Assembly (NCBI GenBank): GCA_026386805.1
Contig: JAPLMX010000206.1
Coordinates: 1 to 64,000 of the forward strand
Reading direction: 5' to 3'
Length of the DNA: 64,000 nt
Origin: Phycisphaerae bacterium
GTDB lineage: Bacteria; Planctomycetota; Phycisphaerae; Sedimentisphaerales; Anaerobacaceae
Below, piece after piece: positions 3,699 through 27,142 of the stretch. Made by a program: the position numbers and the translations under genes. A model generated the notes under the pieces. That model was not told the origin of the DNA. It did not search any database and saw nothing but the letters and a program-made list of their open reading frames with translations. Each line of letters begins with the position of its first letter. Position 1 is the first letter of the stretch.

Positions 3699-3778
3699 GT
3701 GCGGGCGGCTTGACGGAGCGACCTGGGGCTTGTATACTGGCGGGCGATTTTGGCAGGCACTTTCAAAGAGAGGCCATA

Positions 3779-7797: not shown

Positions 7798-7969
7798 ATA
7801 CGGATTTGGAAAAATCCGTGCGCGGTACGGATTTTGTCATCCTGAGGCGAAGCCGAAGGATCTGGCCACCGAATCGGAGGTTTCTCTCGTTCGCAGGCCA
7901 GATCCTTCACTCCGCTACGCTCCGTTCAGGATGACAGGCGGGGGCGCAAGAATTAACCAGAATCCGTAT
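7798..7969. repeat. ATACGGATT...AATCCGTAT shell element with nested insert (copy 1)
   Basis: Begins ATACGGATTTGG with a small hairpin (CGGATTT / AAATCCG) and ends GAATTAACCAGAATCCGTAT. The outermost 9 bases are an exact inverted repeat. Inside lies the 100-bp GTCATCCTGA palindromic element (7836-7935). A second shell with a different insert is at 50518-50639. Each starts within about 20 bases after a stop codon. Confidence 0.75.
7836..7935. repeat. 100-bp GTCATCCTGA...TCAGGATGAC palindromic element (copy 1)
   Basis: The ends GTCATCCTGA and TCAGGATGAC are exact 10-bp inverted repeats. Inner arms GAAGGATCTGG and CCAGATCCTTC also pair. A copy of the same length is at 61441-61540. Confidence 0.8.
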
Positions 7970-8076: not shown

Positions 8077-11000
8077 CTACCCTCCACCAAGCCCGGTCGT
8101 GGCGCCGGTGGTGCCCGTGCCACCGGTGGTGCCCGTCGTGGTGCCAGTGCTGGTGGTCGTGGCGCCCGCCCTCTGAACGGCGGGTATGGCGTCCGACCAC
8201 CCGGTCTCATTGCCGAGGGCATCGCGGGCCTTGACGCGGAACACTACGGCCGCATTCTTCCGGCCGACGTTGACGCGCCAGGTCGGCGCGTTGATCCAGC
8301 CGCTGCTGAAGCCGCCGTTCGGATAGACCTTCGGGTAATCCACGGCCTCGAAGTAGTACTGGACACCGCCGCTGGCGTCGGTGGCCGTGACGGCAGTCAT
8401 GTCGGCGTAGAAGTCATAGGTGCCGCCGCCGCCATCAAGCTCACGCGGCAGGCCGTTCGGGTCCCACTGCATCGGGTTCGGTGTCGGAGGCGTTGTGTCC
8501 GCCGGGGTCTGCGTCGTGACGGTGACCCAATCCGACCAGGCGGTCTCGTTGAGCCGGGCCGACGTATCCCGGGCCTTGACACGATACTGGTACCTCGTGC
8601 TCGGGACCAGATTGGCATCCGTATAGGCCGGCGTATTGATCCAGCCGCTGTCATGGGCTCCCGGCGTGTTCGTGTCGAAGTAATACTGCACACCGTTGAG
8701 GTTGTCAACCGCGGGTCGAGCCGTCATCGCGACCGTTTGCGACGACGTCGCGGTGATCGTCAGGATGTACGGCGCCGGGGTCGGTGGCGTCGTGTCCACC
8801 ACGCCGGCGAACCGGATCGTGGACCACTTCGTCTCATTGCCGATCGCGTCGCGGGCCTTGACTCGATAGCCATATTCCAGACCAGACTGCAGACGCGTGT
8901 CGAGATAGACCCGGCTCTTCTGCCAGCCGCTGCTGTGACCACCGCCGTGCACGCACTCGAAGTAGTACTCGACCTCCGAGCCCCACCAGGCATCGATCGC
9001 CTCTCTGGCCATCATCTGCGCGGCGTTGCCGCCGGTTATCTCGGGCGCCGTTTCCCACTCGGCCGGGTTCGGCACCGGCGGCGTCGTGTCCTGCGCGAGC
9101 CAGCAATCCGCCAGGAGCGCCAGGTCGTTGAGGTTGACCTGGGAATCGAACGTGAAGTCGGCACCGCGGCACCAGCCGTTGGCCTCGGAGCAACCCGCAT
9201 TGAGCCAGTTCCTCGCGAACGCCACGAAATCGTTGAACTGGATCACGCCGTCGCGAGCCAGGTCGCAGAACCGGCACGGATCGAGGAACCGGTGGTGGTA
9301 TCCGAGGTCCACAACACCGGTATCGGGCACCCGGTCGGTCCGCGTCGTGTAGCGGGACATGCCCAGCGCACCGGCCTGATCGCTGCCGGCGTCGACGCAT
9401 GGACTGGTGGCCGCCTGACCGGCGCCCTGATTGCTCAGGGAGAAGCCGCCGAGCAGGCCGCTGACAAACAGCGGGTCCCTGTGGAGGATGCCCGCGCCAT
9501 ACACCAGCTGGCACCCGATGTCCACGGAGACATCGTTCGGCCCGGCCCAGATGTCGCTGTACGAGATGGAGAGCTTGCCGCACTGCGGATCGAGCTCGAA
9601 TCCGGTCCCGACCGCCAGCTCCGTGCCCAGGCGGGCGAAGTTCTGCCAGAAGATGCTATCGGTGATCGTGCAGTCGCTGTAATAGCCACAGAACACGCCA
9701 CCGCCAAAGCCGGTGTGGTTCGGATCGGTCACAACGCCGGGCGACGCATTACCGAAGAAGGTGCAATTGCGGATCGTCGGCGTGGCGTACCAGTTCGTCG
9801 AGAGGCCACCGCCGTCGCGAAGCGCCAGGTTGTCACGGATCAGGCAGTTGACGATCGCCGTGCTGTTCTCGCCCCGCAGGTAGAAGCCACCACCGGAGCC
9901 GCTGGACGTGTTGCCGGCGACGTTGCAGTCCTGGACAATGGCGGTGGTGGAGGACAGCAGAATGCCAGCACCCACCGGCAGAACGAGATCGTCGCTGGTG
10001 TCCGTGCCATCCAGGATCGCGAGGTTGTTCTTCACCTCGCAGCCGGAGATATTGACCGCCCCGCCGATGATGGTGAGGCCCGCGCCGCGAAGGGCAGTGT
10101 TGGCCCGGATGCGGCTGTCAATCACCATGGCGTTGGAGTCGGCCACGTAGAAGCCGCCGCCGGTATCGGCCACGTTGCCGACGAAGTTGCAGTCGACGAA
10201 CAGGACGCCGGCCGTGCGTTCGGCCGCCACGCCGCCGCCGTAGCCAACATACGGATCGATGCGGAAGTTCTGGGTCGGCGTGACCGACGACGTGTTGTTC
10301 TGGAACAGGCACTGCGTGAACGTCACGGTCGTGTCGGCCGCACAGTACACGCCGCCACCGTAGCTGGAGATCTCAAATGCGGTCTGAGGCTCGGCGCGGG
10401 CACCGGTCGAATTGGCGCCGCCCTGACCGCTGAGGCCGCCCTGGGAGCTGTTGCCGCGGATGATGCACTCGACGAACTCGGCCTTGCTGCGGCGGTCGAT
10501 GAAGACGCCGCCGCCGTAGCCGGAATACCAGCGGTAATCGCCAACATAGTGCCCGCCGCCGTGCGACGAGCTCGCCGCGGTGAACATCACGTTGCCGGAC
10601 GAGTACGCCAGGGCGTAGTCCCACTCCCAGAGGTTCCACAATTCGCTGTCGGCCATCTCCGTGCCGAGCTTGTCGGGATCGATGTTGACCCGCACGGACG
10701 GCGTATAGTTGCCGCCATAGTTGGCCAAGCCACCGCTGGCGACGCCGGCGCCGCCATTGCCACCGTTGCCGCCCTGGGCGGAGTTATTCTCGATGATGCA
10801 GTTGATGAACTTCGGGCTGGTGTCAGGGCCACAGTAAATCGCACCACCGCGCGCCCAGCCAGCCCAGCCGCCGCGACCCGCATTGTTCGTGGCATCCGCC
10901 GCGGCGCCGTTGCCGCCGTTGCCCGCGACCACAGAGTTGTTGTGGATCACGCAGTTTTTGATCGTGGGGCTGGCCCCGGCCAGCAGGACCATGGCGGCAC

Positions 11001-14000
11001 CGTTGACCGGTGCGCCGTCGTAGCCGTCCGGATGACCGGCGCCCCGGTTGCCGCCGGCGCCGCCGTTGATCACGGAGCCGCCGAAGTTCTCCAGCGTGAA
11101 CCCACTGAACACGGTCCGACGCGTGGTTTCCCCACGGAACAGGACGCCCTGATTGTTGATCTGGTTGCCGGCAACGGTGCCGGGGCCGCGGATAATCGTG
11201 GCCGCCACCACCGCCGGATCGTCCGGTTTCGCGGACGTGACCGTCACCGCTTTGTCCAGAACCAGGGCAAAACGCACACTGTTGACGTCTTCGACCGGGT
11301 GTCCGCTATAGTAGATGCCCGGATCGACGACGATGGTGTCGCCCTCCTCGGCCACGGTCACCGCATCCTGAATGGTCGTATAATCGCCCGGCACGGTGAC
11401 CACGCGCGAGGTGCGTTTTTCGAGAGTCACGACCACCGTGCGGTCCTCCGTCAGCGTGACGAAATTGACGGTGGCCGTCAGAAGGTCATTGTCCGTGCCC
11501 GTCCATTTCTTGATCTTCCAGCCGTCGTCGGGTCTGACCTCGAGCCGGACCACCTTGTCGGCGGAGCCTTCGTAGACCAGCGCGAAGCCGGGCATCACGG
11601 CGCCGTGGACCACGCCATCGGCCGGATCAGGCGCGACCGAGGCGATCAGCTTGAAGAGCGTCACGCCCTCGCCATAGTGGTAACCCAGGTCCACCGTGCC
11701 GGCATCGTGAACGCCGTCGGTCCGGGTCGTGCGCTCCGCGAGCGTGAGGTCGGGCGCACCGGCCGGACTGCTGCCGGCGTCGACCGCCGGGCTCTGGCGG
11801 CCTTGTCCCGCCGCCGTCTGGCTCAGATAATAGCCGGCGACGAACATCGGATCGGCGGCGAGGTTGCCCGTGTCCGCCTGCCAGACGCCTTCCAACGCGT
11901 TCCAGCCCGGCACCCGCGAGTCCTGCGACACATAGACCGGCGGTGTCGCTTGCGTGATCAGCCCGAGGGTGTTCAGCATGCTGGCAACGATCTGGTTGGG
12001 GTCCGTCACCTGCACAAAGGCGCCGCCCATAATGCCGGCGATGTCGCGGAAGTAGAGCGCCGTCGTCGGATCGTTGCCAATCTGGAGAGCGAAGACCCGC
12101 GTGCCGGGTGACTTCGCAGCTTCCTGGGCCACCGTGGCGAGAGTATAGCCGCTCGGCGCCTCCGGATCGTGCGGCGGAACATCGCCGACGAGCAGGATGA
12201 CCCGATCCACGCTGCCGCTACGCCAGGTCCCGAGGTTGTTGGCGTCAATCGTACGCGTCAGAGCGTAGTAGACCGAGTCGGGCGTGTCGCCGCCGGAGCC
12301 GGCGGGCGTCGCGATCGAGTTGATCCCGCCGATGACGCGATCCGCCACGTTCGTGAACGGCGTCACGACACGGTACGGATAATCCGTCGCCGCGCCATAG
12401 TTGGCCGCGACCGCGCTGTTAAAGTCCTTGAAGTCCACGACCGCCATGCGGTAATCGGAGACCTTGCCCGCGACACCCGCGACGATCTGCGCGGCCGCCG
12501 CTCGGATCTTGGTCATGTTGGCCGACATGCTGGTGCTCGAATCGAAGACAAAGACCAAGTCGAGCGGCTTGGCGCCCGCAGCGTCCCGGCTCGGCTCGAT
12601 ATCGCTGTGCAGGATGTGCAACGCCGAGGGCCTTTCGCCATACGGGTATCCATTGGTGACCGCGACCTGCGCGCCTTGGCCCGTGCTGCTGTTACCCCAG
12701 ACAATCGAGTCGATCAGGACCGCGTTGGAGTCGTAAGCGATGGACAGACCACCGCCGAAAGCGTCGCCCTGGCCGTTGGCCACGAAGTTGTCGGCGATCG
12801 TGCAATTGGAGATCGTCGGCTCGTTGTACCAGTTGACGGACGCACCGCCGCCATCGCGTCCGGCCCCGTTGCTGGTGATCAGACAGTTGTGCAGCAGCGG
12901 CGTCAGACTCACATCCTGATCGGACCCGCCGAAGTACACACCGCCACCGGATGTGATGGCCCGGTTGTTATTGAAGATGCTGTCGCGGATCTCCAGGGGC
13001 GAGTTGATGCCGCAGAAGCCGCCGCCCCAGCCGACGATGCCGGTGCTGGGGGCATTCGGATCCGTCAGAACGTTCGGATCGATGGTGGACTGGAAGGCCA
13101 GGTTACGCTGAATCATCGTGCCGGAAATCGTACCGGTCGCATTGACCGCGTAGAGGCCGCCGCCGTGGTACGCCACGTTGTTGGCGATATTGGAGTCGAC
13201 AATCATCGGCGCGGACTTGGACCAGTACAGACCACCACCGATCGTGGCGTTGCAGTCCTCGACGGTGCAGCGGAGGAACACTGGCCGCGAATCGTTCTCG
13301 ATGGCGATGGCCCCGCCGTAGGTCGTGTAGATGTCGTCTGGGTTGGTGACCGCATTCGTGTCTTCGGCCGTGTTGTTCTTGAAGACGCAGCCAGTGAACT
13401 CCGGATCGCTGGCCTGGCCGATGTAGACGGCGCCGCCGTAGCTGCCGATGTTCAGAATCCGGTCGGGAAGCGCGAAACCACCGGTAGCGGTCGTAGCAGC
13501 GCCACCCGCGCCGGCGCCCCCGGCGCCGCCCGCCGCGGCACCGCCGCTCGTGCCACCAATGCCGCACACCCCGCCAAAAGCGTGGTTATCGCTGAAGTTG
13601 CAGTCGATGAACTTCGGCGCACTATAGTACTCGATGTACACGGCGCCGCCGTAACCGCTGTACTTCCAGTAGTCGTCGTAGTAGCCCCGCGGATCGGACG
13701 TCGTGCTCTCCACCGAGCCGCGCAGCTTGCCGTCATGGTCGAACGGACCGTACTGCCATCCATCCCACCACGCTTGAATACTCGATTCAATCGAGGCGGA
13801 GAACATCCAGTTGCCGCCCCGGCCGCCATGGGCGTTGTTCGTGCCATTGCCGCCGTTGCCGCCGTTGCCGCCGTAGACCCGGCAGTTCTGGAATAGGCAG
13901 TTCTGGAAGGTCGGATTGCTTCCAAAAGCGATGTACAGGGCGCCGCCGTAGGCCCAGCCGGCGTAGCCGCCGTCGTAGCCGGCCGTGTGGGCGGTATTCC

Positions 14001-17000
14001 CATTGTCGCCTGCGCCGCCGTTGCCGCCGGTGATGCTGCAATCGGTGAACCGGCAGTTGCGGATCGTCGGCGAGGCCCCAAAGAGGCTCATGATGCCGCC
14101 CTGGAGGGGTGCCCCCTGGGCACCATCCGCCTGGGTGCCAGCCGCACCGTTGAGACCCGTCCAGGTAACGTTGCCGATCGTCAGGCCGTCAATGACCGTC
14201 TCCGGCCCAACGTTCAGGAGCTGGATCTGATATCGGCGCAGAATCGTATTGGCGACGACGTTCGGGTCGTCCGGATTGCTGCTGGTCAGGGTGATATTCT
14301 TGTTCTGGATCAGGATGTAGTTGACCGGGTACTCGACCTGCGTCACCTGGGCCGGGTAGTAGGTACCGGTGGGCACCAGGACAACGTCGCCGTCCTCGGC
14401 CGCGTCGATGGCATCCTGAATCGTCGGGTACAGGCCGGTGCTGCCGACCACGAGGGTCCGGGGCTGCTCGAACCGGACCGTGACGTTTCGGTTGAGCCAC
14501 ATGACGACGGTGTTGTCCTTCTGGCTCGATCCGTCGTCGGTCGTTCCAGACCACTCGGCGATCCGCCATCCGGATTCCGGCGCGGCCACGATCGGCACAG
14601 CCGTGCCGGCATAGAACGTGCCGCTCGTCGGATCGACTGAGCCGTGACCGCCGACCACCTGCGCCGTCAGCGTGTATTTCGGCAATTGAGTATGATCCGG
14701 GAAGTGATACCCGAGATCCACTGCGGCCGTGTCCTTGACGCCATCCACACGCGTCGTCAGATCGGCGAGCGCGGTGTCCGACACGGAAGCACTGCCGGCG
14801 TCGACCGCCGGACTCGTGGCCTCGTTGCCTGCCGCCGCCTGACTGAGATAGAACGCTCCCAGCGGTCCTGCGACGAACAGCGGGTCCGCCTGGAGATTCG
14901 TCGGACTCAACTCGGAGGCCGTCTTGGCGACCGTCTTCTGCGTCACGCCGTCATAGAGGCCATAGTCGGCCGGCGTGTTCGCGGAGAACAGGGAGTGCTC
15001 AATAACGGAACCGGCGAAATCCGCCTCCGCGACGGCATACTTGCTATTGCCCTGGAAGATCGAGTCACTCACGGTCCCATCCGAGCTCCAGTCGCAAGAG
15101 ATGGCACCGCCCAGTCGGTTGGCCGTGTTCTTGGCAAACGTGCTGTTGGTGACCACGGGCTTCGCGTACAGGCCGCACCAGATCGCGCCGCCGTCACGCT
15201 TGGCCGAGTTCTCCGTGAACAGGCAGTTTCTCACCAGGTGATCGACAAAGCCACCATACAGACCGAGGGCGCCACCGGCTCCCTTGACCCCTTGCGCCAC
15301 GTTGGAAGCAAAGGTACAGTTCTCGATTTGGGCATTGGCGCCCGCGCAAACGATGCCACCGCCGACATCGAGGCCGACGTCGGCGTCCTGACGGGAGAAA
15401 GTGCCACGAAGCAGATCCACCAGCGAACTGACCGCCGTGGAGGTCTGGAGGCTGATGCCGCTGCCGCCGATGGCGACGTTGTTGCTGACGTAACCGCCGT
15501 TGAGCCGCAGGGTGCCGCTTGTCTGGAACAGCGCGCCGCCGCTCTTGGCCTTGTTGCCCGTCAGATAGCAGTTGGTGAGCACGGCGTTGACATCTTCAAA
15601 GTGCAAGGCGCCACCCTGGCCGTAGAAGCCGTCCGTCGCCTCGTTGCCACCAAAGGTACACGAGTCGAGGTTCACGGCGAGCACCGACGGCGTGTTCGGG
15701 TCGATCCGGTAGAAGGCTTCGATCGCACCGCCGTTGCCGCTGACGGCTGCACCGGAATTCACGCCGGCACGGTTGCCTGAGAAGGCACAGCGGACCAAGT
15801 CGGCGTTGCTCTGCAGGAGGAGCGCGCCGCCGTTGCCGACCGTCATGTTGCTGTGGAAGCTGCAGTCGGACAGCGTGACCTTGGGGCATCCCGGTCCGAC
15901 GTACAAGGCGCCGCCCACGTCCGGGATGATGACGTTGTTCGGATCAAGCGAATTCGGATCGATCAGGTTGGGATCCAGTGCGACAATGCTCAGGAGAGAA
16001 TTGACCACCTGGTTCTTGCTGAAGACGCAGTCGTTGAAGTCCACAGTGCTGCTGCCTTGAACGTACACAGCGCTGTTCGCGTTCTCCGTGAACCGGCACG
16101 TCGTGAGGACCACTTCATTGCCCGTGGTGGAGTACAAGGCACCGCCGACCGTGTAGACGCGTGCTTCCGCACCGCCGGCCGGGTAAGACTCGTAGGACTC
16201 GTTCTGCGTGAACTGGCAGTCCGTGAACTTCGGATTGGCGCTACTCTGGTAGACGGCGCCGCCGGCGACCAGGCCGTTCGAAAGAACGATGCCGGGCGAG
16301 CCGGGACCGGCCGGGTTCGGATAGGGGGCGGCCAACGCACCGCCGGGACCGTTCAGGCCGACCAAGCCGGCTGCACCATTGAGAGCGCGGTTGTTCGCGA
16401 AAAGGCATCGCTCGAAGGTGGCATCACTGCCGGCTTCGCAATAAGCAGCGCCGGCGCGGCCGTAGCCATACCCGCCGCCCGCGTTGCCGCCCCAGCTTTC
16501 GCGGCCGCTGCCCTGGTTCGGCGTGCTGCCGTTGCCGCCGCTGCCGCCCATGCCGCCTCGGGCCAAGCAATTGCGAATCGTGCAATCGACCAACTTCGGT
16601 TTGCTGGCACCCAGACAGGCGACAGCGCCGCCGAAGCCATTTCCCGTTCCGGTGCCGCCGTGCCCGCCCCAGGAACCATCCGCAGCGCCGGTGGTGATCG
16701 CCGGGCCGCTGATGCCGTCGCCGCCCCAGGCACCGATCACCGTGCAATCCTCGATCACGCACTTGCTGAAGGTCGGCGAACTGGCGTTCTCGCACAGAAT
16801 GGCGCCGCCGTACCCTATACCCGTGGCATCCTGGCCACCGGCCATCCGGGTCGGCGGAGTCGTATCCTGACTGACAACCTCATCCGGGCTGATCGGGTGG
16901 GCCGGCGTTCCCCCGCCGTTGACGCCCACCGTGCCGATCCAGAGGGCATTCTTCATCGTGATGCCTTCAATTCGGCACTCCGCGGTCTCCCCGCGGTGGA

Positions 17001-20000
17001 AATAGAAGGCGCGATGCCGGTTGACGCGCGAGCCCTGGCAATCGATCACGGTGCTGGCCACCACCTTCGGGTCGTCCGGATTGGTCGACATGATCCGGAC
17101 GTTCTTACCCAGCAGATCGATGCCCCGCGGGCTCGTGACGTTATGCGTGCCCTGGTTGAGAATGATGTTCGTGTCGCCGGCACTGGCCGCCACCACCGCA
17201 TCCTCAATCGTCGCGTACTGCGTCGGCACGATCAGGTTGCGCGTGACGGCCGTTTCGAACTCGACGGTGACGAACTTGTTCTCGGTGTTCATCACCACCG
17301 CGTTGACGCTGCGATTCCAGGAGGGGTCGCTCTTGGTGCCGATCCACTGCTTGACGCGGTAGCCCGGGTCCGGATGCGCGAGCAGCGGCACTTCCTCGAA
17401 CTCGAAGTACTTGCCGGCCAGAGGCGTGACCGTGCCGTGGCCGCCGATGACGGAGACCGTAAGCTGGCACCGGTTCATGCTGGGATAATGGAAGCCCATA
17501 TCCACCTTGCCCTGGTCGCCAACGGTGTCGGTCCGGGTGCTGTAGCCCGCCAGGGCGAGTTTCTCGGCCGAGTCGCTGCCGGTATCAACCGCCGAGCTGG
17601 TTGTCGCCTGTCCGGCCGCCGTCTGACTCAGATGGTAGCCCGCCACGAACAGCGGGTCGTCGTCAATATCGTTCGGGAACCAGTTGAGCGTCGCCCCTTG
17701 TTCCACGTGGATGCCGGCCAAGCCGTTCTGAACGTCGCTGAATTTCACCGTCAGAAGCGCCGGCCGCGGCAGGTAGATCGGATCGCTCTGGCTGCCGAGC
17801 GCGATCTGGCTGCCCTGGTTGCCCGTGTTGTCCCAGAGAATGCTGTTCAGCAGCGTCGTGTTGCTCTCGTAGGAGCAGAATAGACCGCCGCCCAGGCCGC
17901 GATTCGCGTTGCTCGGATCGCTGGCGTCGTTGCCGACGATCGTGCAGTTGGCGATGGTCGGGGCCACGAACCAGTACGAGGCGATGCCGCCGCCGCCGAT
18001 CAGGGCCTTGTTGTCCTTGACCAGGCAGTTCTTCAGAGTCGGCAGGCCCGGATCGCCGCCGAAGTAGGCGCCGCCGCCGGAACCGTTGACGGTGTTCTCA
18101 CTGATGGAGCAGTCCACAATGGTCGCACTCGACGCCCAGCAGACGAAACCGCCGCCGCCGCCCAGGTCGGTGTCCTTCATCTGCGTCACGGGCGGAGGCG
18201 TGAACGGATTGTTCGGATCGAACATGGAGTTCGGATCGTTCGGGTCGGGCCAGGTGCTGGAAGGAGGCCACGTGTTCGGATCGGATTGGACCGGGGTCAC
18301 GGCCGGAACGAGCAAGGCGTACTGCGGTCCCATCGCCGTGTTGCCGCGAATGCTGCAGTTGGTGATCGACGGGGCGCCGCCGCTCCAGTACAGACCGCCG
18401 CCGTGCTGCGCGGTGTTGTTGCGGATGAGGCAGTCCGTCACGGCGATATCGGCTTCGTCGCCGTACCAGTACAGGCCGCCGCCGAAGGCCGCGGCGTTGT
18501 TCGTCACCTGGGTGGTCTTCAGGTAGATCTGACTGCCGTTGTACCAGGCGTTGCCCTTGTCGTTCCAGGTGCCGCCCGCGTAGATGCCGCCGCCGGCGCT
18601 GAGCGTGCCGGTAGCCTGGTTGCTGCCGAACGTCGAATCGTTCACGTCGATCCGGCAGTCATACCAGACGTAGAGCGCGCCGCCGTCCGAGGCCGCGGTG
18701 TTGCTCATGAACGTGCAGCCGGTGATCGTTGCCTGGCAGGATTCGTCGAACGCGAGCGCACCGCCGTTGAGGCCGGTGCGGTTGCTGCTCAGGCTGCACC
18801 CTGTGAGCTGCGTCGTGCAGCCCGTGCTGTAGAAGATGGCGCCGCCGCTCTGGTTCTCGATCCGGTTGGAGTTCAGCGTGCAATTCGTCAGCGTCACCTT
18901 GCAGTTTTCGCTGCAGAAGACAGCGCCGCCGAAGTTGGTGGTGATGCTGGTCGCCCCACGGCCCGCACTGCCGGCCGCGCCGGCCCCGCCCGCGTTGCCA
19001 CCGGCCCCGCCGGCCCCGGCCGTGCCGGAGGGATTGCCGTCGCCGCCCGTGCCGCCGGCCCCGCCGGACCCGCCATCGCTGCCGCCGGTGCCACCGGCGC
19101 CGCCGGTGCCGCCGGCATACGCCACCGTGGCCACCGTCGAGGCGGCCGAGTTGGAGCTGACGACGGTATCCGACATCACGACCTCGCAGCCCTTGCCGAA
19201 GAAGATGGCGCCGCCCAAGGAGGCGGTGCCGTTCCTGCTCATGTTGCCGCCGGTCCCGCCCTTGCCGCCGTTACCGGCCGTGCCGGCTGCACCCGCGGCG
19301 CCGTCCGTGCCGTTCGGATCGCCGGCCGCGCCCGCCGCGCCGCCCGTGCCGGCATTGCCGCCGCTACCGCCGGCGCCACCGGCGCCGCCCGCACTCCCCA
19401 AGCCTTGACGGATAGAGGAACTCGTAATCGTGCAGTACTTGATCGTCGGCTTGCAGTTGTCGCCGAAGTACAGAGCGCCGCCGAGGGCATTGCCGCCTTC
19501 GCCGCCGGTGCCGCCCTTGCCGCCGGCCCCACCGGCTCCACCGTTGCCGCCGGCTCCACCGGCCCCGCCGTTGCCGCCGGTGCCCGCCGTAGTGCCTGGG
19601 GTGGCCGCCGCCGGAGCGGGGGTCACGGCCGGCGTCGGGGTGACCGCCGGGGTCGTACCACCACGAGTCGCGGGAGGCGTCGTGGCCGCCGGAGTCGTGG
19701 TAGCCGCCGGGGTGGTAGCAGCAGGAGCATTCGCATCCGCCGCGGCAGGAGCGGGGCCGCCGTTCTGGCCCTGCTGGCCGTCCTGACCGTTCTGGCCGTC
19801 TCCACCGTTCTGGCCGTTCTGACCCGCGCCGCCGAAGCCGCCGTAGCCGCCGAGGGCTCGGCAGTTGGTAATCGTGCAATGGAGGATCAACGGAGTGCTG
19901 TTGGCATCGAAGTACAAAGCGCCGCCATAGCCGTGACCGCCCTTGCCGCCGTTGTAGCCATCCGCTCCCGCCGAGCCGTCGGCGCCGGCCGCACCGGCCG

Positions 20001-23000
20001 CACCATCGGCGCCGTTTTCGCCGTTCATGCCTTCCGCCGCGTCAGCCGCCTGGTCGGGGGCAGGCGCCGGGTCTGCCGGGGCCGCCGGGGCCGCGAACGC
20101 CGGGTAGACGGAGCTGCCGTCTTCGCCGTTGCGGCCGCGCGCCACGCAGTCCTGGATGACCAGGTTCGACAGGGTCGGACTGCTTCCGCCAAAGCAAGCC
20201 ACTGCGCCGCCGAAGCCGTCCTCGCCGACAGCGCCCGTGCCCCCCGTACTCGTCGGAGCGCACGGATCGGCCACCGCGTATCCATTCTTGATCGTGAAGC
20301 CATCCACTACAGAGTCCGGCCCTTCGCCCGACTGGAAGACGAAGGCCCGTCCGAGCTGCTGGCAATCGATGATGGTCCGCGCCACGCAGCACGGGTCGTC
20401 CGGGTGCTCGCTGGCCAGCGTGATCGCCTTGCCGCCGAAATCGAGCCCGCGCGTCTGGTAGGTGCCGGCGCCGACGATGACTTTGTCACCATGCGAACTG
20501 GCCGTCTTGAGCGCGTCCGCGATAGTCTTGTACTGGGCGGGGACATAGAAGCTCCGCGCCTGCTTGAACTTGACCGTGACGTCCGTATCCTTGTGGATCG
20601 TCACCGTGTTGGTGTTCGCCCACGAGGCATCGTTGTCCGTCCCTTGCCATTGCTCGACGATGTACGTCGCATCGGGCGAAGCCACAAGCTGGACAACGGT
20701 ACCGTCGAGATAGGATTCGCCTCGGCGATGATTGGGATTGATCGTTCCGTTAGCGCCGCTGACGGTCGTGCGGAGCAGGTACGACGGAATCTGCTCGAAC
20801 TCGATCCCGATCACGGCCGGCGCCGTCATCGTGAACGTGACAGTGGCGTCTTTCTTGGTGTCGTCCGGCGTGCCCACCCACCGCTTGATGCGATAGCCCG
20901 CCTTCGGAGTGGCCTTGATCGTGACCACTTCGAACTGGCGGAACGAGCCACTGTTCGGATCGACGCGGCCGCCGGCCTGGCTCGGATCGACCGGCTGGTT
21001 GGCGGCGTCCACCACACTGACGATCAAGGCGAACTTCTGCGCTGGCGCCGCACCGTAGTGCGCGCCCGGATCGATGGCGCCGGTATCGGTCACGCCATCG
21101 GTTCGCGTCGTCAACCTATACAGGTGATCGGTGAAAGACGGACTGGTGCTGGGATCGCCGGCATTGACGCACGGACTGTCGGTCAACTGCCCCGCCGCCT
21201 TCTGGCTGAGGTAGTAGGACCCGCGCGGTCCCTGCGTGAACTGCGGCTGGGCGTGGGTATTGCCGGCCCCGGCGTCGTTATCCTCGATGCAGGAGTAGGT
21301 GGCCGAGCAATCGAACAGATCGTCGCCGTTGCCCCAGAGGATGCAGTTCGTGATGAGCGGGTCGCAGTTTCCGAACGCCCAGATGCCGCCATCTTTGGCG
21401 GCGTTGGAATCGTCGCAGATAATCGTGCAGCTTGTGATCGTCGGGGAGGAATCCTCCAGGTCGATCTGGCCGCTGCCACTGACCGCCGCGTTGTTCGTGA
21501 GGAAGCAGTTGAAGACCTTCGGGGAGGCGTTGTAGCACGCGATGCCGCCGCCGGTACTCATGGAGAGATTATTGCGGATGATGCAGTCCGTGATGTCCGG
21601 CGCGGCGTCCTCGAGGTTGATCCCGGCGCCGATGGCCGAGGCCCCGAACGCCCAGTTGTTCGCGATGACGCAGTTCGTAATCAGGGGCGAACCGCCCAGG
21701 CAGTCGATGCCACCGCCGTAGTAGCGGGCCTGGTTGTCGGTGATGATGCAGAAACTGATCGTCGGCGAGGCGTCCTGGCAACGGATGCCCGCGCCGTATT
21801 CGGCCACGCCCCAACCGATGGTGAAGCCCTTCAAAACGGTGTCTCGCCCTTCCCCGTGGGCGAACGTCACGATCGAGCCTTCCTTTACCACCCCGAGGAT
21901 GAACGTCGTGTCCGGGTAGACGTTGGGGTCGGCGGGGTTTGTCACGCTGCCGCTGCGCAGCGTAATCGCCTTGCCCTGAAAGTCGATCTGCTCCAGGTAC
22001 ATCGTAATGCTGCCCGCCTTGCCCTCGGCGATCAGCGTGTCGCCGTCGGTGGCCGCCTCGATGGCCGCCTGGATCGACGTATGAAGGCTGGCAGGATTCG
22101 TCGGGTCATCGCGCAGGTTGAGTACCCGGCCCAGTTGTCCCGTGGGGACGGACTTCAAGGCGCTGGCCAGGTTGACGCGCCCCTGGGACAGGCACAGTCC
22201 CGGCACGACCTTGTCCGTCGTCTGCATCAGGGCATGCTTGATGTGGTAAACCGACAGGAACGGATACTTCGACCAAAGCAGAGCGGCCGCTCCCGAGACG
22301 TGCGGCGCGGCGACCGAGGTGCCGGTCAGCGCCCCGTATTCCTTCGTCACCCCGTCCTTCGTCATCGACGGCGTTTCCGTCATCGGCGTCGTGCTCCGGA
22401 CGTTGAGGCCGGGCTCCGCGATGTCCACCGTCTTGGGGCCGTAGTTCGACGGCCAGGCGATATGGTCGTTCGCGTCGGTGGCCATGACCGAGATGATGTT
22501 CTCCAAATCGTAGCTGGCGGGATAGACCGGGACCTTGTCGTTGTTCGTCGAGTCGTTGCCGGCGGCCGCGACGAAGAGAACGCCTTTCTTGCCGGCCGCC
22601 TCGATGGCGTCTTTGAGGCTTTTGCTGTAGTCGGGCCCGCCCCAGGAGGCATTGATAACCTTGGCGCCGGAGGCCGTGGCATACTGGACCGCCGCCACGG
22701 CGGCGTTCAGCTTCGCGCCGTCCTTGTCAGCGACCCGGCAGATCATCAGGCTCACGTTCCAGTTGATGCCGGCGATGCCGACCTGGTTGTTGGTCGCGGC
22801 GCCGATGATGCCCGCCACGTACGTTCCGTGGTAGACATCGTCGGCCGGGGTGGCAGAGTTGCCGATGAAGTCCCAGCCGTAGACATCGTCGATCTTGCCG
22901 TTGCCATCGTCATCGGTCTTGGCCTTGCCCTTGGTCTCCGCCACGTTCGACCAAAGGTTCGCGGCAAGGTCCGGATGGGTCGCGTCCACGCCGGTGTCGA

Positions 23001-23571
23001 GAATCGCGACGAGGAAGCTCTTGACCCCCGTGTGAAGGTCCCACGCCTCCGGCGCATCGATATCCGCGTCGGGGCGCCCCCCCGACTGGCCCGTGTTGTT
23101 CAGGGCCCACTGTTGCGGGAAGTTCGGGTCGTTCGGCACCCTATGGAGCTTGTACCGATAGTTCGGCTCGGCGTACAGAACGTCCTCGCAGGTCCCAAAC
23201 TGCTCCATCGCCTGCGTCAGGGATGCGCCTTTGGGCAGCCGGACCAGCGTCAGCCCGGGCACCACGCCGTCGTACTGCTCCCGCACGGAAGCCCCCGGCA
23301 CGATACGTCCGGAAATGGCCTCCCGCACGGCACGCGGTGTCTGCGGACCCACTACATCGGGACAGGTCACGGGCGGAGTATCCCGCTGAACGAAACGGAC
23401 GAGCAATTCGCCTGGCTCGCCCAGGGACGTTCCGCCACCGCCGACGGCGTCCGATAAAGAAGTTGAGAATCCGTTGGCTGCTCCCAGGCTCACCTGGGCG
23501 CATACGATTAGCATGGAGCTAATCATCAGCAGCCGCCAGGCGCCGGGTCGCTCCTGAATCTGCTCTTTCAT
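8077..23571 (-). CDS. Giant exported subtilisin / beta-helix / VWA / dockerin-like surface protein
   Basis: About 5,164 residues. The ATG at 23571 has AGG 6 bases upstream and is followed by a signal peptide (WRLLMISSMLIVCAQVSLGA); a TTG at 23589 is less likely. Numbering from that TTG, residues about 60-150 look like a propeptide. A subtilisin (S8) domain follows, with D198 (LDTGVD), H254 (HGTYVAG), N345 and S425 (GTSVAAPH). Then come five similar units, each a parallel beta-helix that opens with a TIQDA-type motif and ends LSQxAAGQ...DxGYHY. InlB-like repeats separate them. Glycine-rich PGRS-like stretches and GGAI/FxxN motifs are dense in unit 2. A VWA domain (DSSTS, about residues 3673-3876) sits inside unit 4. 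The C-terminus has a two-loop dockerin-like domain (about 4771-4835), three Fn3-like repeats and a Thr/Gly tail. Probably a cell-surface or secreted adhesin-protease. Its partner is likely the secretin encoded just upstream. Confidence 0.9.
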   Translation of the reverse strand: MKEQIQERPGAWRLLMISSMLIVCAQVSLGAANGFSTSLSDAVGGGGTSLGEPGELLVRFVQRDTPPVTCPDVVGPQTPRAVREAISGRIVPGASVREQYDGVVPGLTLVRLPKGASLTQAMEQFGTCEDVLYAEPNYRYKLHRVPNDPNFPQQWALNNTGQSGGRPDADIDAPEAWDLHTGVKSFLVAILDTGVDATHPDLAANLWSNVAETKGKAKTDDDGNGKIDDVYGWDFIGNSATPADDVYHGTYVAGIIGAATNNQVGIAGINWNVSLMICRVADKDGAKLNAAVAAVQYATASGAKVINASWGGPDYSKSLKDAIEAAGKKGVLFVAAAGNDSTNNDKVPVYPASYDLENIISVMATDANDHIAWPSNYGPKTVDIAEPGLNVRSTTPMTETPSMTKDGVTKEYGALTGTSVAAPHVSGAAALLWSKYPFLSVYHIKHALMQTTDKVVPGLCLSQGRVNLASALKSVPTGQLGRVLNLRDDPTNPASLHTSIQAAIEAATDGDTLIAEGKAGSITMYLEQIDFQGKAITLRSGSVTNPADPNVYPDTTFILGVVKEGSIVTFAHGEGRDTVLKGFTIGWGVAEYGAGIRCQDASPTISFCIITDNQARYYGGGIDCLGGSPLITNCVIANNWAFGASAIGAGINLEDAAPDITDCIIRNNLSMSTGGGIACYNASPKVFNCFLTNNAAVSGSGQIDLEDSSPTITSCTIICDDSNAAKDGGIWAFGNCDPLITNCILWGNGDDLFDCSATYSCIEDNDAGAGNTHAQPQFTQGPRGSYYLSQKAAGQLTDSPCVNAGDPSTSPSFTDHLYRLTTRTDGVTDTGAIDPGAHYGAAPAQKFALIVSVVDAANQPVDPSQAGGRVDPNSGSFRQFEVVTIKATPKAGYRIKRWVGTPDDTKKDATVTFTMTAPAVIGIEFEQIPSYLLRTTVSGANGTINPNHRRGESYLDGTVVQLVASPDATYIVEQWQGTDNDASWANTNTVTIHKDTDVTVKFKQARSFYVPAQYKTIADALKTASSHGDKVIVGAGTYQTRGLDFGGKAITLASEHPDDPCCVARTIIDCQQLGRAFVFQSGEGPDSVVDGFTIKNGYAVADPCAPTSTGGTGAVGEDGFGGAVACFGGSSPTLSNLVIQDCVARGRNGEDGSSVYPAFAAPAAPADPAPAPDQAADAAEGMNGENGADGAAGAAGADGSAGADGYNGGKGGHGYGGALYFDANSTPLILHCTITNCRALGGYGGFGGAGQNGQNGGDGQNGQDGQQGQNGGPAPAAADANAPAATTPAATTTPAATTPPATRGGTTPAVTPTPAVTPAPAAATPGTTAGTGGNGGAGGAGGNGGAGGAGGKGGTGGEGGNALGGALYFGDNCKPTIKYCTITSSSIRQGLGSAGGAGGAGGSGGNAGTGGAAGAAGDPNGTDGAAGAAGTAGNGGKGGTGGNMSRNGTASLGGAIFFGKGCEVVMSDTVVSSNSAASTVATVAYAGGTGGAGGTGGSDGGSGGAGGTGGDGNPSGTAGAGGAGGNAGGAGAAGSAGRGATSITTNFGGAVFCSENCKVTLTNCTLNSNRIENQSGGAIFYSTGCTTQLTGCSLSSNRTGLNGGALAFDESCQATITGCTFMSNTAASDGGALYVWYDCRIDVNDSTFGSNQATGTLSAGGGIYAGGTWNDKGNAWYNGSQIYLKTTQVTNNAAAFGGGLYWYGDEADIAVTDCLIRNNTAQHGGGLYWSGGAPSITNCSIRGNTAMGPQYALLVPAVTPVQSDPNTWPPSSTWPDPNDPNSMFDPNNPFTPPPVTQMKDTDLGGGGGFVCWASSATIVDCSISENTVNGSGGGAYFGGDPGLPTLKNCLVKDNKALIGGGGIASYWFVAPTIANCTIVGNDASDPSNANRGLGGGLFCSYESNTTLLNSILWDNTGNQGSQIALGSQSDPIYLPRPALLTVKFSDVQNGLAGIHVEQGATLNWFPNDIDDDPLFVAGYHLSQTAAGQATTSSAVDTGSDSAEKLALAGYSTRTDTVGDQGKVDMGFHYPSMNRCQLTVSVIGGHGTVTPLAGKYFEFEEVPLLAHPDPGYRVKQWIGTKSDPSWNRSVNAVVMNTENKFVTVEFETAVTRNLIVPTQYATIEDAVVAASAGDTNIILNQGTHNVTSPRGIDLLGKNVRIMSTNPDDPKVVASTVIDCQGSRVNRHRAFYFHRGETAECRIEGITMKNALWIGTVGVNGGGTPAHPISPDEVVSQDTTPPTRMAGGQDATGIGYGGAILCENASSPTFSKCVIEDCTVIGAWGGDGISGPAITTGAADGSWGGHGGTGTGNGFGGAVACLGASKPKLVDCTIRNCLARGGMGGSGGNGSTPNQGSGRESWGGNAGGGYGYGRAGAAYCEAGSDATFERCLFANNRALNGAAGLVGLNGPGGALAAPYPNPAGPGSPGIVLSNGLVAGGAVYQSSANPKFTDCQFTQNESYESYPAGGAEARVYTVGGALYSTTGNEVVLTTCRFTENANSAVYVQGSSTVDFNDCVFSKNQVVNSLLSIVALDPNLIDPNSLDPNNVIIPDVGGALYVGPGCPKVTLSDCSFHSNMTVGNGGALLLQSNADLVRCAFSGNRAGVNSGAAVSGNGGAIEAFYRIDPNTPSVLAVNLDSCTFGGNEATDGFYGQGGALHFEDVNAVLTNCYLTGNKAKSGGALFQTSGTLRLNGGYVSNNVAIGGSGISLQTSTAVSSLVDLLRGTFSRQDADVGLDVGGGIVCAGANAQIENCTFASNVAQGVKGAGGALGLYGGFVDHLVRNCLFTENSAKRDGGAIWCGLYAKPVVTNSTFAKNTANRLGGAISCDWSSDGTVSDSIFQGNSKYAVAEADFAGSVIEHSLFSANTPADYGLYDGVTQKTVAKTASELSPTNLQADPLFVAGPLGAFYLSQAAAGNEATSPAVDAGSASVSDTALADLTTRVDGVKDTAAVDLGYHFPDHTQLPKYTLTAQVVGGHGSVDPTSGTFYAGTAVPIVAAPESGWRIAEWSGTTDDGSSQKDNTVVMWLNRNVTVRFEQPRTLVVGSTGLYPTIQDAIDAAEDGDVVLVPTGTYYPAQVTQVEYPVNYILIQNKNITLTSSNPDDPNVVANTILRRYQIQLLNVGPETVIDGLTIGNVTWTGLNGAAGTQADGAQGAPLQGGIMSLFGASPTIRNCRFTDCSITGGNGGAGDNGNTAHTAGYDGGYAGWAYGGALYIAFGSNPTFQNCLFQNCRVYGGNGGNGGNGTNNAHGGRGGNWMFSASIESSIQAWWDGWQYGPFDHDGKLRGSVESTTSDPRGYYDDYWKYSGYGGAVYIEYYSAPKFIDCNFSDNHAFGGVCGIGGTSGGAAAGGAGGAGAGGAATTATGGFALPDRILNIGSYGGAVYIGQASDPEFTGCVFKNNTAEDTNAVTNPDDIYTTYGGAIAIENDSRPVFLRCTVEDCNATIGGGLYWSKSAPMIVDSNIANNVAYHGGGLYAVNATGTISGTMIQRNLAFQSTIDPNVLTDPNAPSTGIVGWGGGFCGINSPLEIRDSIFNNNRAITSGGGVYFGGSDQDVSLTPLLHNCLITSNGAGRDGGGASVNWYNEPTISNCTIADNFVANGQGDAFGGGLSIAYDSNAVLIDSIVWGNSSTGQGAQVAVTNGYPYGERPSALHILHSDIEPSRDAAGAKPLDLVFVFDSSTSMSANMTKIRAAAAQIVAGVAGKVSDYRMAVVDFKDFNSAVAANYGAATDYPYRVVTPFTNVADRVIGGINSIATPAGSGGDTPDSVYYALTRTIDANNLGTWRSGSVDRVILLVGDVPPHDPEAPSGYTLATVAQEAAKSPGTRVFALQIGNDPTTALYFRDIAGIMGGAFVQVTDPNQIVASMLNTLGLITQATPPVYVSQDSRVPGWNALEGVWQADTGNLAADPMFVAGYYLSQTAAGQGRQSPAVDAGSSPAGAPDLTLAERTTRTDGVHDAGTVDLGYHYGEGVTLFKLIASVAPDPADGVVHGAVMPGFALVYEGSADKVVRLEVRPDDGWKIKKWTGTDNDLLTATVNFVTLTEDRTVVVTLEKRTSRVVTVPGDYTTIQDAVTVAEEGDTIVVDPGIYYSGHPVEDVNSVRFALVLDKAVTVTSAKPDDPAVVAATIIRGPGTVAGNQINNQGVLFRGETTRRTVFSGFTLENFGGSVINGGAGGNRGAGHPDGYDGAPVNGAAMVLLAGASPTIKNCVIHNNSVVAGNGGNGAAADATNNAGRGGWAGWARGGAIYCGPDTSPKFINCIIENNSAQGGNGGNGGAGVASGGLANYGGNYTPSVRVNIDPDKLGTEMADSELWNLWEWDYALAYSSGNVMFTAASSSHGGGHYVGDYRWYSGYGGGVFIDRRSKAEFVECIIRGNSSQGGLSGQGGANSTGARAEPQTAFEISSYGGGVYCAADTTVTFTQCLFQNNTSSVTPTQNFRIDPYVGYGGGVAAERTAGVLFVDCNFVGNVADTGGGFYVADSNAMVIDSRIRANTALRGAGLTIIGGAVNISGCEVKNNLAILDGTDTSDDLVLPVGAGILLSSTTAIVQDCNVAGNTSSGSGGGFYLRGENSTAIVNCLIRDNLALRDGGGLSTNWYATPTIRNCTFFGNASPGVVTDPNHTGFGGGVFCGYYSDCTITDSIFWQNFARLGTELAVGTGFELDPQCGKLSISYSDIWAGPNDVSVDIGCQLVYGAGILHRDPLFVSGLLGGFSLSNQGAGQAATSPCVDAGSDQAGALGMSRYTTRTDRVPDTGVVDLGYHHRFLDPCRFCDLARDGVIQFNDFVAFARNWLNAGCSEANGWCRGADFTFDSQVNLNDLALLADCWLAQDTTPPVPNPAEWETAPEITGGNAAQMMAREAIDAWWGSEVEYYFECVHGGGHSSGWQKSRVYLDTRLQSGLEYGYRVKARDAIGNETKWSTIRFAGVVDTTPPTPAPYILTITATSSQTVAMTARPAVDNLNGVQYYFDTNTPGAHDSGWINTPAYTDANLVPSTRYQYRVKARDTSARLNETAWSDWVTVTTQTPADTTPPTPNPMQWDPNGLPRELDGGGGTYDFYADMTAVTATDASGGVQYYFEAVDYPKVYPNGGFSSGWINAPTWRVNVGRKNAAVVFRVKARDALGNETGWSDAIPAVQRAGATTTSTGTTTGTTGGTGTTGATTGLGGG

Positions 23572-23668
23572 ATGCCTATTTCCGTTCAACTGTGCCTAAG
23601 CCCGTACACGATCCGTACCTGGGAATCCCTCTCCTCCCCACCATCGTCATTTGCGAGGCGAGACTCCA

Positions 23669-26600
23669 CTACCGCCGAGCCGCCGCGGCAATCTCCTCCA
23701 TCGAGGCGATTGCTTCGTGCTCGGTCTCTTCCTGCAAAATGATCGTCGGTTTGACCAGGATCAGCAGAATCTTCTCGTCCTGGATTGAGCTGCGATTGGA
23801 GAACAGCCGGCCCAGAAGCGGGATCTTGCTCAGGATCGGGACTCCCACTTCCTTGTCCACCTTGGCCGTGAGCTTGTGACCGCCCAGCAGCAGCGTGCCT
23901 CGGTCAGGGACGCTGACGCGGGTCGCGACGTTGGAGGTCTCCGTCTCGGGGACGGTCACGGGCTGCGTGATCGTCGCCGGCGCCCCCACCGTCACATTCG
24001 GGTTCGGGGATGTCACCTGGAGCGTCCTGAGCCGCAGCAAATCGATCTGCTGGCTCACGATATTCAACAGGACGTACTTCTTGTCCTTGGTGATCGTCGG
24101 GGTGATGCTCAGGGTGCTGCCCACCTGCATGGAGTAGACGTTACTGGTGGCGCCCGATGCCGTGACACCGGCGCCGACCCCGCCGACCGTCGTCGCGGTC
24201 GTGTTCGTGTTCGGCAAGGCGAACGCCACCTGGTCCGAGATGGTGAAGGACGCGCCTTCGCCGCTCATGACCGTCACCTTCGGAGCCGACAGGGCCTTCG
24301 TATCGGTGCGTCCCTGCGTGGCGTTGAGCAGCGCGCTGACCTGCAGCTCGTCGAGAGCCGTACCCCAACCGCCGGTGACGCCGATGGCGGGATTGTCAGC
24401 CAGTCCGCCCAGGCTCCCGGGGACTCTCGTCGAGGTATCCGGCGCCCCTGAGACGATGGAACCCTGGTTCACCGTGATCACTCCCCATTTGCCGCCCGGC
24501 CGGTAACTGAAGTCCAGATCCAGTCCGATGGCCTCCATGAAATTCTGGCTCACGACGAGGAATCTGGCCTCGATGGACACCTCGTGTCCCAACGACTTGC
24601 GGAGCTGGTCCAGCAAGTCGGAAATCTGCTGATGCGCCTCCGGCGTATTGTAAACGGCCATCTTCATCGGCGTAGTCTGCGGGTACAGGGTGATCTGTCC
24701 CATCGCGGTCGCGTCCGTGGAGATGTCGATCCAGCTATTGGGATTGATGCTCTCCTCGATGAGCTGCCGCAAGCCGTAGGCCATACTGCCGCCGCCGCCC
24801 ATCATGCCGCCGCCCATGCCACCATAGCCGCCGCCCATGCCACCGCCCATGCCGCCGCCGTAGCCGCCGCCCATGCCACCCATGCCGCCGCCCATGCCGC
24901 CCATCATTCCTCCCATGCCGCCCATGCCTCCCATGCCACCCATGCCACCCATCATTCCCATTCCACCCATGCCGCCCATCATGCCGCCGCCCATGCCGCC
25001 GCCCATCATGCCGCCGCCCATGCCGCCGCCCATGCCGCCGCCCATGCCGCCGCCCATGCCGCCGCCGTAGCTGGAGCCGCCGCCGGTGGTACCGTTGGTG
25101 CCGTTGCCGCCAATCATGTTGCTGTAGCTGGTGATGTTCGAACCACCGCCCATCATGCCCATGCCGCCCATCATGCCCATCATTTGGCCCATCATGGCAT
25201 AATTGGCCTGCTGGCCGATAAGATCGCTGATGTCGTAGACACGGGTTTCCATCTTCCTCTGGGGCAGACCTGTCGTCGTGGCAATTGTGACAACCCCCTT
25301 ATTGACCACATAGTCTACCGGGTTGGTCTGGTCCAGGGGGTCGGAAATCGCCTTGACGAGGTTGTCCAGGGCCGTGCCGAGCCTGATATTCGGCAGTCCG
25401 TCCATATTGACCGGACTGGTCGGCTCGATGTTGACGTTGTCCAGCAAATCCCGCCAGAGCACAACGATGTTCAGCGGCGGCACGACGGATTTCCGCAGCA
25501 TTTCAATGGCCGCGCTCAGCGGCGTCTGCGCCGTAAGCAGCGAAAGATCGACCTCCGTCTCAAGCTGCCGGTAGACCTGCACGTTCAACGGATCCAACTG
25601 GTAGGGTTCCTCCGGCTTGCGCGTCGGCCGCTGCATGACCGAGCGCCAGTCCTTGGGATACGTGATCTCGTCGGCGTAAGGGATGGTCGACTCGTCGGCC
25701 CCCTGGAGCATCTCCGTCCGCTGCCGGGAGCTGAGCTGGTCCAGATCGATCTGCTTACGCATATAGACCATGTCCTGGACCATCTGCCGGAGCGTCAACG
25801 CCTCATCATTGAGCGAATCGATGGCCAACAAGCTGTCCAACTGGCCGAGCGCCGCTTCGTACTGCTGCTGCTTCCAGTAGGCCTTGGCCCGTTCCATCAG
25901 CTCGTTGATTCGGTTCGTGCGATCCGTTTCCGCTTGCGTCCGCAGATCGCTTTGGGCCTGGGCGGCCTCTTTGCGCTTCTGCTCGCCCAACTGCTTCTCC
26001 CGCTCGACCCGGGCTTCACGGATTCGCTCCACCGTCTGGTTGAGCCGCAGCGTGTGCTGCTTGTACAGATCCTCCCCCAGGTAGAATTGGGCTTCAGTCA
26101 CGACGCGTTGGGCATCGGCGACACGATCCGTGGCCGCATCAAACTCCCCTTGCGCAATATCTCTCTGCGCTTGGGTGACGCTATCGTTGACAACCGCTTC
26201 CGTATGGCTGCGAATGATGTTCCTGCGGCGGCTGATCGCATCGATGGAGCCGCCCTGGTCCGGGACCGACGGCCCGTTGGCCAGGGCCGTGACACCCGGC
26301 TCGATGGGGGGCACCACGGTCGGTGGCGTCATCATCGGCGGGGCCTGGGGCACCGGCGTCATCGTCGCCGGTTCCACCGTCGCGGGCAACGTCGTTGCGG
26401 AAGGCGGGGGCGTCGGTTGCGCCGGCGGCTGGGCCGCCTGCAATCGGTCGATCGTGGCGATGTAATCCTCGGGGCGTCGGCCCTCGGCCGCCCGGAACAG
26501 ACCGCTCCTGGCTACTTCCACGAACCCCTGACGGGCCGCCGTCAATTCGCCCTGCGAATAGAGTTCCAGACTGCGCGCGTAGAGCTCCGCAATACGATCC

Positions 26601-27142
26601 ACTTCGCTCTGCGACGACCCGGCGGGAGCAGCCTGCGCATTGGGATCCGCCGGCGTGTTGGTCAGGGCCGTCACTCCCACGGCGGCCGGGACCTGACCTT
26701 GCGGCGGCTTTGACACAGGCGCAGTGGTTGAGCCGCCCATGGCGCCGGCGTTACCGACGGCACTACTGGCGGTGATCTTGCTCGCAGGAGGCGAGTCGGT
26801 CTTGCCGACCGCCAGCGCGCGCTTCTGCTCTGTAGCCGCCGCAGTGGCTTTGTCCAGGAGCGACTGGAGCTTGCGCTGCTCGACCAGGTCCAGGTAGGCC
26901 TTATGTTCCAGGGCCATCTGGAAAGACTTCTCCGCCTGGTCGTAGGAGCCGCGATCATACTGCTCCTGCCCCGTGCGCATTAAGTACTGACCCAGATGAC
27001 GCATCGTGGCGTCATCACTGCTTTGCGCCGCCTGCGACCATGTCACCGACAGGAGTGCCGTGGCACTCAGCAATACCGATGCGAGGACTGTGGAAACGAT
27101 CCCCTCACGTGCAGACTTAGCGTACACACTTGGCCTGTCCAA
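23669..27142 (-). CDS. Secretin (type II/III secretion outer-membrane pore family) with Gly/Met-rich insert
   Basis: A 1,157-residue outer-membrane channel protein. The start is TTG at 27142, backed by AGGAGG 7 bases upstream; a signal peptide follows (VLASVLLSATALLSVTWSQA). Residues about 50-450 hold TPR-like helices and coiled coil. About 525-640 resemble a secretin N-domain (PLSAAIEMLRKS). About 647-786 are almost only Gly and Met in GGM/GMM repeats. About 850-1150 are the secretin core, with VPDRGTLLLGG and VPILSKIPLLGRLF near the end. Typical GspD proteins are 650-750 residues, so both the N-terminal half and the insert are extra. No other secretion genes are nearby. The next gene on the strand, 97 bp on, is the giant protein, suggesting exporter and cargo in one transcript. 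Confidence 0.9.
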   Translation of the reverse strand: MDRPSVYAKSAREGIVSTVLASVLLSATALLSVTWSQAAQSSDDATMRHLGQYLMRTGQEQYDRGSYDQAEKSFQMALEHKAYLDLVEQRKLQSLLDKATAAATEQKRALAVGKTDSPPASKITASSAVGNAGAMGGSTTAPVSKPPQGQVPAAVGVTALTNTPADPNAQAAPAGSSQSEVDRIAELYARSLELYSQGELTAARQGFVEVARSGLFRAAEGRRPEDYIATIDRLQAAQPPAQPTPPPSATTLPATVEPATMTPVPQAPPMMTPPTVVPPIEPGVTALANGPSVPDQGGSIDAISRRRNIIRSHTEAVVNDSVTQAQRDIAQGEFDAATDRVADAQRVVTEAQFYLGEDLYKQHTLRLNQTVERIREARVEREKQLGEQKRKEAAQAQSDLRTQAETDRTNRINELMERAKAYWKQQQYEAALGQLDSLLAIDSLNDEALTLRQMVQDMVYMRKQIDLDQLSSRQRTEMLQGADESTIPYADEITYPKDWRSVMQRPTRKPEEPYQLDPLNVQVYRQLETEVDLSLLTAQTPLSAAIEMLRKSVVPPLNIVVLWRDLLDNVNIEPTSPVNMDGLPNIRLGTALDNLVKAISDPLDQTNPVDYVVNKGVVTIATTTGLPQRKMETRVYDISDLIGQQANYAMMGQMMGMMGGMGMMGGGSNITSYSNMIGGNGTNGTTGGGSSYGGGMGGGMGGGMGGGMGGGMMGGGMGGGMMGGMGGMGMMGGMGGMGGMGGMGGMMGGMGGGMGGMGGGYGGGMGGGMGGGYGGMGGGMMGGGGSMAYGLRQLIEESINPNSWIDISTDATAMGQITLYPQTTPMKMAVYNTPEAHQQISDLLDQLRKSLGHEVSIEARFLVVSQNFMEAIGLDLDFSYRPGGKWGVITVNQGSIVSGAPDTSTRVPGSLGGLADNPAIGVTGGWGTALDELQVSALLNATQGRTDTKALSAPKVTVMSGEGASFTISDQVAFALPNTNTTATTVGGVGAGVTASGATSNVYSMQVGSTLSITPTITKDKKYVLLNIVSQQIDLLRLRTLQVTSPNPNVTVGAPATITQPVTVPETETSNVATRVSVPDRGTLLLGGHKLTAKVDKEVGVPILSKIPLLGRLFSNRSSIQDEKILLILVKPTIILQEETEHEAIASMEEIAAAARR
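24785..25205 (-). repeat. In-frame Gly/Met microsatellite inside the secretin gene
   Basis: On the plus strand this reads as runs of CCCATGCCGC-like units in steps of 3, 9 and 12 bases. It encodes about 140 residues dominated by GGM and GMM. Slippage would mostly change length in frame. Confidence 0.85.

Follow-up and report, generated by a model that had tools for sequence, protein, structure and literature searches.

Does a secretin that is encoded directly ahead of a giant exported protein serve as the outer-membrane channel for this protein? The question is raised by a locus of a Phycisphaerae bacterium on contig JAPLMX010000206.1, of which positions 1 to 64,000 of the forward strand (64,000 nt, hereafter the window) were analyzed. 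A preliminary description had regarded the two genes as a possible dedicated export pair. The comparisons reported here favor another reading: the secretin is likely the PilQ-like gate of a class-wide machine, encoded at a displaced position, and the giant protein an order-specific neighbor and possible client.

Gene and domain organization of the locus

Both reading frames were recovered on the reverse strand where the preliminary description had placed them, in the order secretin (27142-23669), 97 bp, giant gene (23571-8077). Counted from the ATG at position 23571, its figures of 97 bp for the spacing and 5,164 aa for the giant protein were correct. The search of the 97-bp gap for promoter- or terminator-like sites yielded none; a terminator with a separate promoter, together with uncorrelated expression, had been named as the arrangement that would speak against a link. 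The two genes are probably co-transcribed, judging from the sequence of the gap. No other secretion genes had been described as adjoining, and the contig contains neither a second secretin nor a GspE-type ATPase. aroA and aroC lie downstream of the giant gene in convergent orientation, and tsaB, used as the synteny control for the secretin neighborhood, is located upstream of the secretin gene and is divergently oriented (Table 1). Just past aroC, positions 7835-7945 contain an inverted repeat (CATCCTGAGGCGAAGCCGAAGGATCTGGCC / GGCCAGATCCTTCACTCCGCTACGCTCCGTTCAGGATG) that resembles an interspersed element.

Table 1. Positions of the genes and domains discussed. Coordinates refer to the window unless a locus is named.
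Feature	Position	Strand	Evidence and remarks
aroA	3710..5062	+	Ancestral block member; adjoins relocated giant in f3, f7
aroC	6452..7780	+	Convergent neighbor; directly adjoins secretin in f2 and f7 genomes and in G019
Giant exported protein	8077..23571	-	5,164 aa; signal-peptide-like N-terminal stretch
C-terminal module of giant	8080..9324	-	Dockerin-like EF-hand pair, then three Fn3 domains; conserved in alignment
Repeated right-handed beta-helix segments and InlB-type B-repeats	9733..21795	-	Pfam
VWA, PF00092	11989..12561	-	E 7.8e-9; DxSxS motif
Subtilase S8, PF00082	22198..23019	-	E 2.6e-57; motifs DTG, HGT, GTSVAAP (D, H, S)
Gap between secretin and giant	23572..23668	-	97 bp; terminator-like or promoter-like sites: none
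Secretin gene	23669..27142	-	1,157 aa; TTG start
Secretin domain, PF00263	23738..24319	-	aa 943-1135; E 2e-27 and, in a second search, 3.5e-28
Gly/Met-rich linker	24785..25195	-	About aa 650-786; translation and alignment; very variable length in relatives
N0-like domain	25196..25555	-	About aa 530-649; conserved alignment block; sub-type without Pfam confirmation
TPR-like repeat	25766..25888	-	aa 419-459; PF14853 E 4e-4
TPR-like repeat	26903..26977	-	aa 56-80; PF00515 E 4e-4
tsaB	27380..28243	+	TIGR03725 132.9 bits, cut-off 69.3; divergent housekeeping neighbor
Copies of TPR-half-like gene	L067:7042-8184, L074:13066-14187, L076:15882-17015		
Examples of ~800-aa tail paralogue	L122:7392-9821, L123:5674-8058		

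From the N- to the C-terminus, the secretin consists of a signal-peptide-like start, a TPR-rich half, an N0-like domain, a Gly/Met linker and the secretin domain. The latter scored 96.2 bits against PF00263 (curated cut-off of 27.5), as expected of a member of the secretin superfamily, which would form a multimeric ring in the outer membrane. The TPR matches are weak, and stretches similar to the N0-like domain occur elsewhere in the genomes. Since the scores for MshL (99.6 of 250), GspD (97.3 of 351) and PilQ (67.5 of 284) stayed below the NCBIfam equivalog cut-offs, formal membership in any of these families is not claimed. The closest solved structures were a phage virion-export secretin and PilQ, followed by GspD, and the best-matching named records were from Phycisphaerae and Sedimentisphaerales MAGs. 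The Gly/Met insert noted earlier as a peculiarity is present in this secretin; it is a linker of variable length that is long in the window's genus and nearly absent from the aligned proteins of relatives such as L071 and L073, where the giant gene adjoins the secretin gene all the same. As relatives with an adjoining giant differ in the length of this linker, the insert was rejected as a marker of cargo. In several f1 genomes, a gene of 370-390 aa resembling the N-terminal TPR half of the secretin lies between tsaB and the secretin gene.

The giant protein starts with a signal-peptide-like stretch, and its S8, beta-helix and VWA content was confirmed by Pfam, with a beta-helix match to PF13229 (E 2e-53) and Flg_new_2 repeats in addition. 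The C-terminal module of dockerin-like and three Fn3 domains had been overlooked. Its structural model reached a mean pLDDT of 77 and matched Fn3 domains in Foldseek with E down to 2e-11. No match was obtained when the C-terminal 2,770 aa were searched against NCBIfam, and a T9SS-type CTD sorting tail was not found there. Among the giants, the C-terminal module is constant while the N-terminal parts differ (some with a subtilase, some with none; in one f4 member, a NIDO domain). The VWA motif was absent from all 18 relatives searched, i.e., confined to the window's protein, and several giants, those of L071 and L087 among them, lack S8; neither domain was accepted as a family trait.

Giants of still larger size were encountered. 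In G182, a single frame of ~10,557 aa is located 163 bp behind the secretin gene (L242, L243; G182:C19:48775-80448), and G150 carries a frame of 9,915 aa with the C-terminal module of the giants. Many f1 genomes also encode a paralogue of ~800 aa with the dockerin/Fn3 tail, away from any secretin gene.

Conservation of the neighborhood within the order

The order was surveyed in 61 genomes (the window's own and 60 relatives), most of which possess an orthologue of the secretin. In families f1 and f4, at least 23 genomes have a giant gene immediately behind the secretin gene and in the same orientation, mostly after gaps of 40 to 350 bp, and the search with the C-terminal module yielded one full-length match per genome in most of these. 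The adjacency is real and old, recurs in two families and is not due to chance. In f2, f3 and most f7 genomes, the secretin gene still lies by tsaB, often next to aroC, and the giant gene is found elsewhere. Since the relocated giants of f3 and f7 adjoin aroA of the same block, the adjacency of secretin and giant is probably ancestral. The ancestral block is reconstructed as tsaB / secretin / giant / aroC aroA, and aroA beside the giant as its remnant. In G058, aroA sits between the secretin and giant genes, and in G160:C121 (L244, f7) the giant gene is near the secretin gene on the opposite strand, pointing away.

Secretin genes without a giant were also observed. G041 (f6, 95% complete) kept the secretin and contains no beta-helix frame over 772 aa, and in G019 (f1) the secretin gene is directly beside aroC, with no strong giant match. 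Taken over the order, these cases indicate that the pair was adjacent early and was broken several times, with the secretin being retained without the giant. The apparent interruption of the secretin gene in G019 was considered as co-decay with the loss of the giant. This was rejected: runs of 100 N occur at both broken ends and the two halves (L070, L119) overlap by about 50 aa, a scaffolding artefact that mimics gene decay.

The adjacency of tsaB and the aro genes to the secretin gene is about as conserved as that of the giant gene. Adjacency alone therefore carries little functional information. Pairwise distances of the secretin correlated less with those of the giant tail (0.56) than with those of TsaB (0.76). 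The partial correlation between secretin and giant tail was 0.28, a value reached in 103 of 2,000 permutations. The co-evolution that had been suggested as a check on the pair, compared here as mirror trees of secretin and giant tail, did not exceed the tsaB control.

Class-wide distribution and the PilM/N cassette

Among 248 genomes drawn from the class, the secretin profile matched 242, whereas the profile of the giant C-terminal module (E up to 1e-40) matched 39, all inside the window's order. The obligate co-occurrence and linkage of a dedicated export pair were not observed. Outside the order, the TPR-fronted secretin gene is accompanied either by a PilM cassette or by unrelated genes, the outcome that the preliminary description had named as refuting its proposal. 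In a tree built from the last 420 residues, secretins from within and outside the order formed one clade (support 100/99), and the other secretins of the window's genome fell outside it. These scored at most 64 bits on the secretin profile; the operon-linked secretins of other orders scored about 490 to 690 bits. One secretin inside the Phycisphaerae clade came from a contig labelled Anaerolineaceae (Chloroflexota; L201), owing to a binning error or transfer.

In other orders, the secretin gene is often the last in an operon, behind the genes for PilM/N (~700 aa) and two single-TM proteins of ~490 aa and ~600 aa. The assignment of PilM is based on PF11104 (E 6e-37) and on matches to solved PilM structures, and the PilM profile scored 155 bits against PilM of M. 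xanthus. PilM and PilN look naturally fused, since the alignment with 5EOU (PilM with a PilN peptide) continues into the PilN docking motif NLLP behind PilM. For the two middle proteins, no Pfam or PDB match was found; the model of the ~600-aa protein had a mean pLDDT of 42, and its Foldseek matches were discarded as meaningless. The names PilO and PilP would therefore be positional guesses.

PilM/N was present in 235 of the 248 class genomes. Among the 90 genomes outside the order with both positions listed, it was located less than 10 kb from the secretin gene in 41, belonging to seven families; linkage was absent from the listed genomes of f13, f22 and f23 and from most of f9. Within the order, each of the 17 genomes tested had one PilM/N gene, and all 14 loci fetched (L228-L241) showed the three-gene cassette with no secretin gene behind it. 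In the window's genome, the cassette lies on contig C23 at 96441-102415 (G000:C23:96441-102415; L228:6442-12416). Because the secretin is operon-linked outside the order and the cassette lacks a secretin within it, the secretin is read as a displaced PilQ-like gate. By the simplest reading of this gene context, the window's secretin would be the fourth gene of the cassette, displaced early in the order.

Interpretation and comparison with known systems

In the mechanism proposed, the secretin and the giant protein, both with signal-peptide-like starts, would be exported to the periplasm by Sec. The secretin would form a PilQ-like gate in the outer membrane, and PilM/N and its partners would assemble with it and link it with the inner membrane. 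A fiber or piston would be driven by a PilB/GspE-type ATPase, and the machine would probably move folded substrates or build a pilus-like fiber through the secretin. The secretin gene would have separated from the PilM/N cassette within the window's order, and the giant gene would have arrived or arisen between the secretin and aro genes early in the order. With its beta-helices and Fn3/dockerin tail, the giant protein is expected to act on the surface or outside the cell, where it would perhaps bind or digest polymers. It may be one client of the machine but would not be the reason for its existence.

The view that secretin and giant form a stand-alone export pair, with the channel dedicated to this cargo, draws on the same-strand adjacency in at least 23 f1 and f4 genomes with their mostly short gaps (40-350 bp), on the usual presence of one giant per genome, on a gap without terminator and on the close spacing kept even by the ~10,557-aa giant of G182. 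However, outside the order the secretin occurs without the giant module throughout the class sample, G041 and G019 inside the order likewise lack a giant, and in f2, f3 and f7 the giant is encoded elsewhere; tsaB and the aro genes are equally faithful neighbors, and no special co-evolution was detected. This makes it the least probable of the explanations weighed here. That the secretin is instead a general type II gate working with another GspE/GspF set of the genome, not with the PilM/N cassette, is suggested by the 18 matches to PF00437 (GspE/PilB-type ATPases) in the genome and by a GspD profile score that nearly equals that of MshL and exceeds that of PilQ. Yet this secretin belongs to a clade that excludes the genome's remaining secretins, several of which are encoded on contigs that also carry GspE, no listed GspE match is near it in single-contig genomes, and its linkage outside the order is to the PilM cassette, which renders a type II assignment very unlikely.

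A link at the level of the machine would be compatible with the displaced-gate reading and would add to it: the class-wide PilM/secretin machine would have recruited the giant as a client or surface partner in this order, and the adjacency would reflect this recruitment. Most families of the order keep the giant, including those in which it has been relocated, the adjacency is probably ancestral given the f3 and f7 giants by aroA, and the conserved tail module could serve in sorting or anchoring. Nevertheless, the same module occurs on the ~800-aa proteins away from any secretin, the other S8 proteins of the window's genome are encoded on contigs lacking secretins, the giant was lost in G041 and G019, and the partial distance correlation is low. 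Recruitment is accordingly possible but rather doubtful. A more specific version, in which a pilus-type machine became the exporter or anchor of giants of about 2,000 to 10,500 aa, with the secretin gene having moved to its client and the Fn3/dockerin tail acting as the signal, is unlikely. Under the preferred reading of a displaced PilQ-like gate, surface exposure of the giant would be expected, and the machine that exports it may be this one or another.

Solitary secretins of planctomycetes are hard to assign, and here class-wide comparison of gene order linked one of them to the PilM/N cassette. Through this comparison, a near-universal pilus- or T2SS-like machine of Phycisphaerae becomes testable. 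In the literature searched, neither this cassette nor a planctomycete pair of secretin and giant was described. The neighboring giant need not be the cargo of the secretin, and whether it uses the PilM/secretin machine is now a well-defined question.

Several known systems resemble parts of this arrangement. Large extracellular beta-helix proteins of the PVC group have been described, for example in Ca. Menyafoubacter (PMC12057145). They share with the giants the Sec signal, tandem beta-helix segments and very large size, but differ from them in that the giants have a dockerin/Fn3 tail, in many members a subtilase and, in two families, a neighboring secretin. Type II GspD shares the secretin domain (TIGR02517, 97 bits); this score is below the cut-off of 351, no GspE is adjacent, and the clade is apart from the genome's other secretins. 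In Akkermansia, Amuc_1098 and Amuc_1099 share a type IV pilus-associated operon with Amuc_1100, and a PilQ secretin is abundantly made (PMC9415379). The window's secretin matched the Amuc_1098 family NF042912 weakly (57 bits, cut-off 750), and the Amuc_1098-1100 operon may be a distant PVC analogue of the cassette and secretin. In comparison with PilMNOPQ of Myxococcus, Thermus and Pseudomonas, a PilM homologue was recognized by profile with the PilN docking motif behind it, the four-gene order with the secretin last is found outside the window's order, and PilQ is among the closest solved secretins. The differences are the fusion of PilM with PilN, the TPR-rich N-terminal half of the secretin, two middle proteins without recognizable PilO or PilP sequence and, in the window's order, the split-off secretin gene. 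By analogy, the secretin and cassette may function like PilMNOPQ or a T2SS gate.
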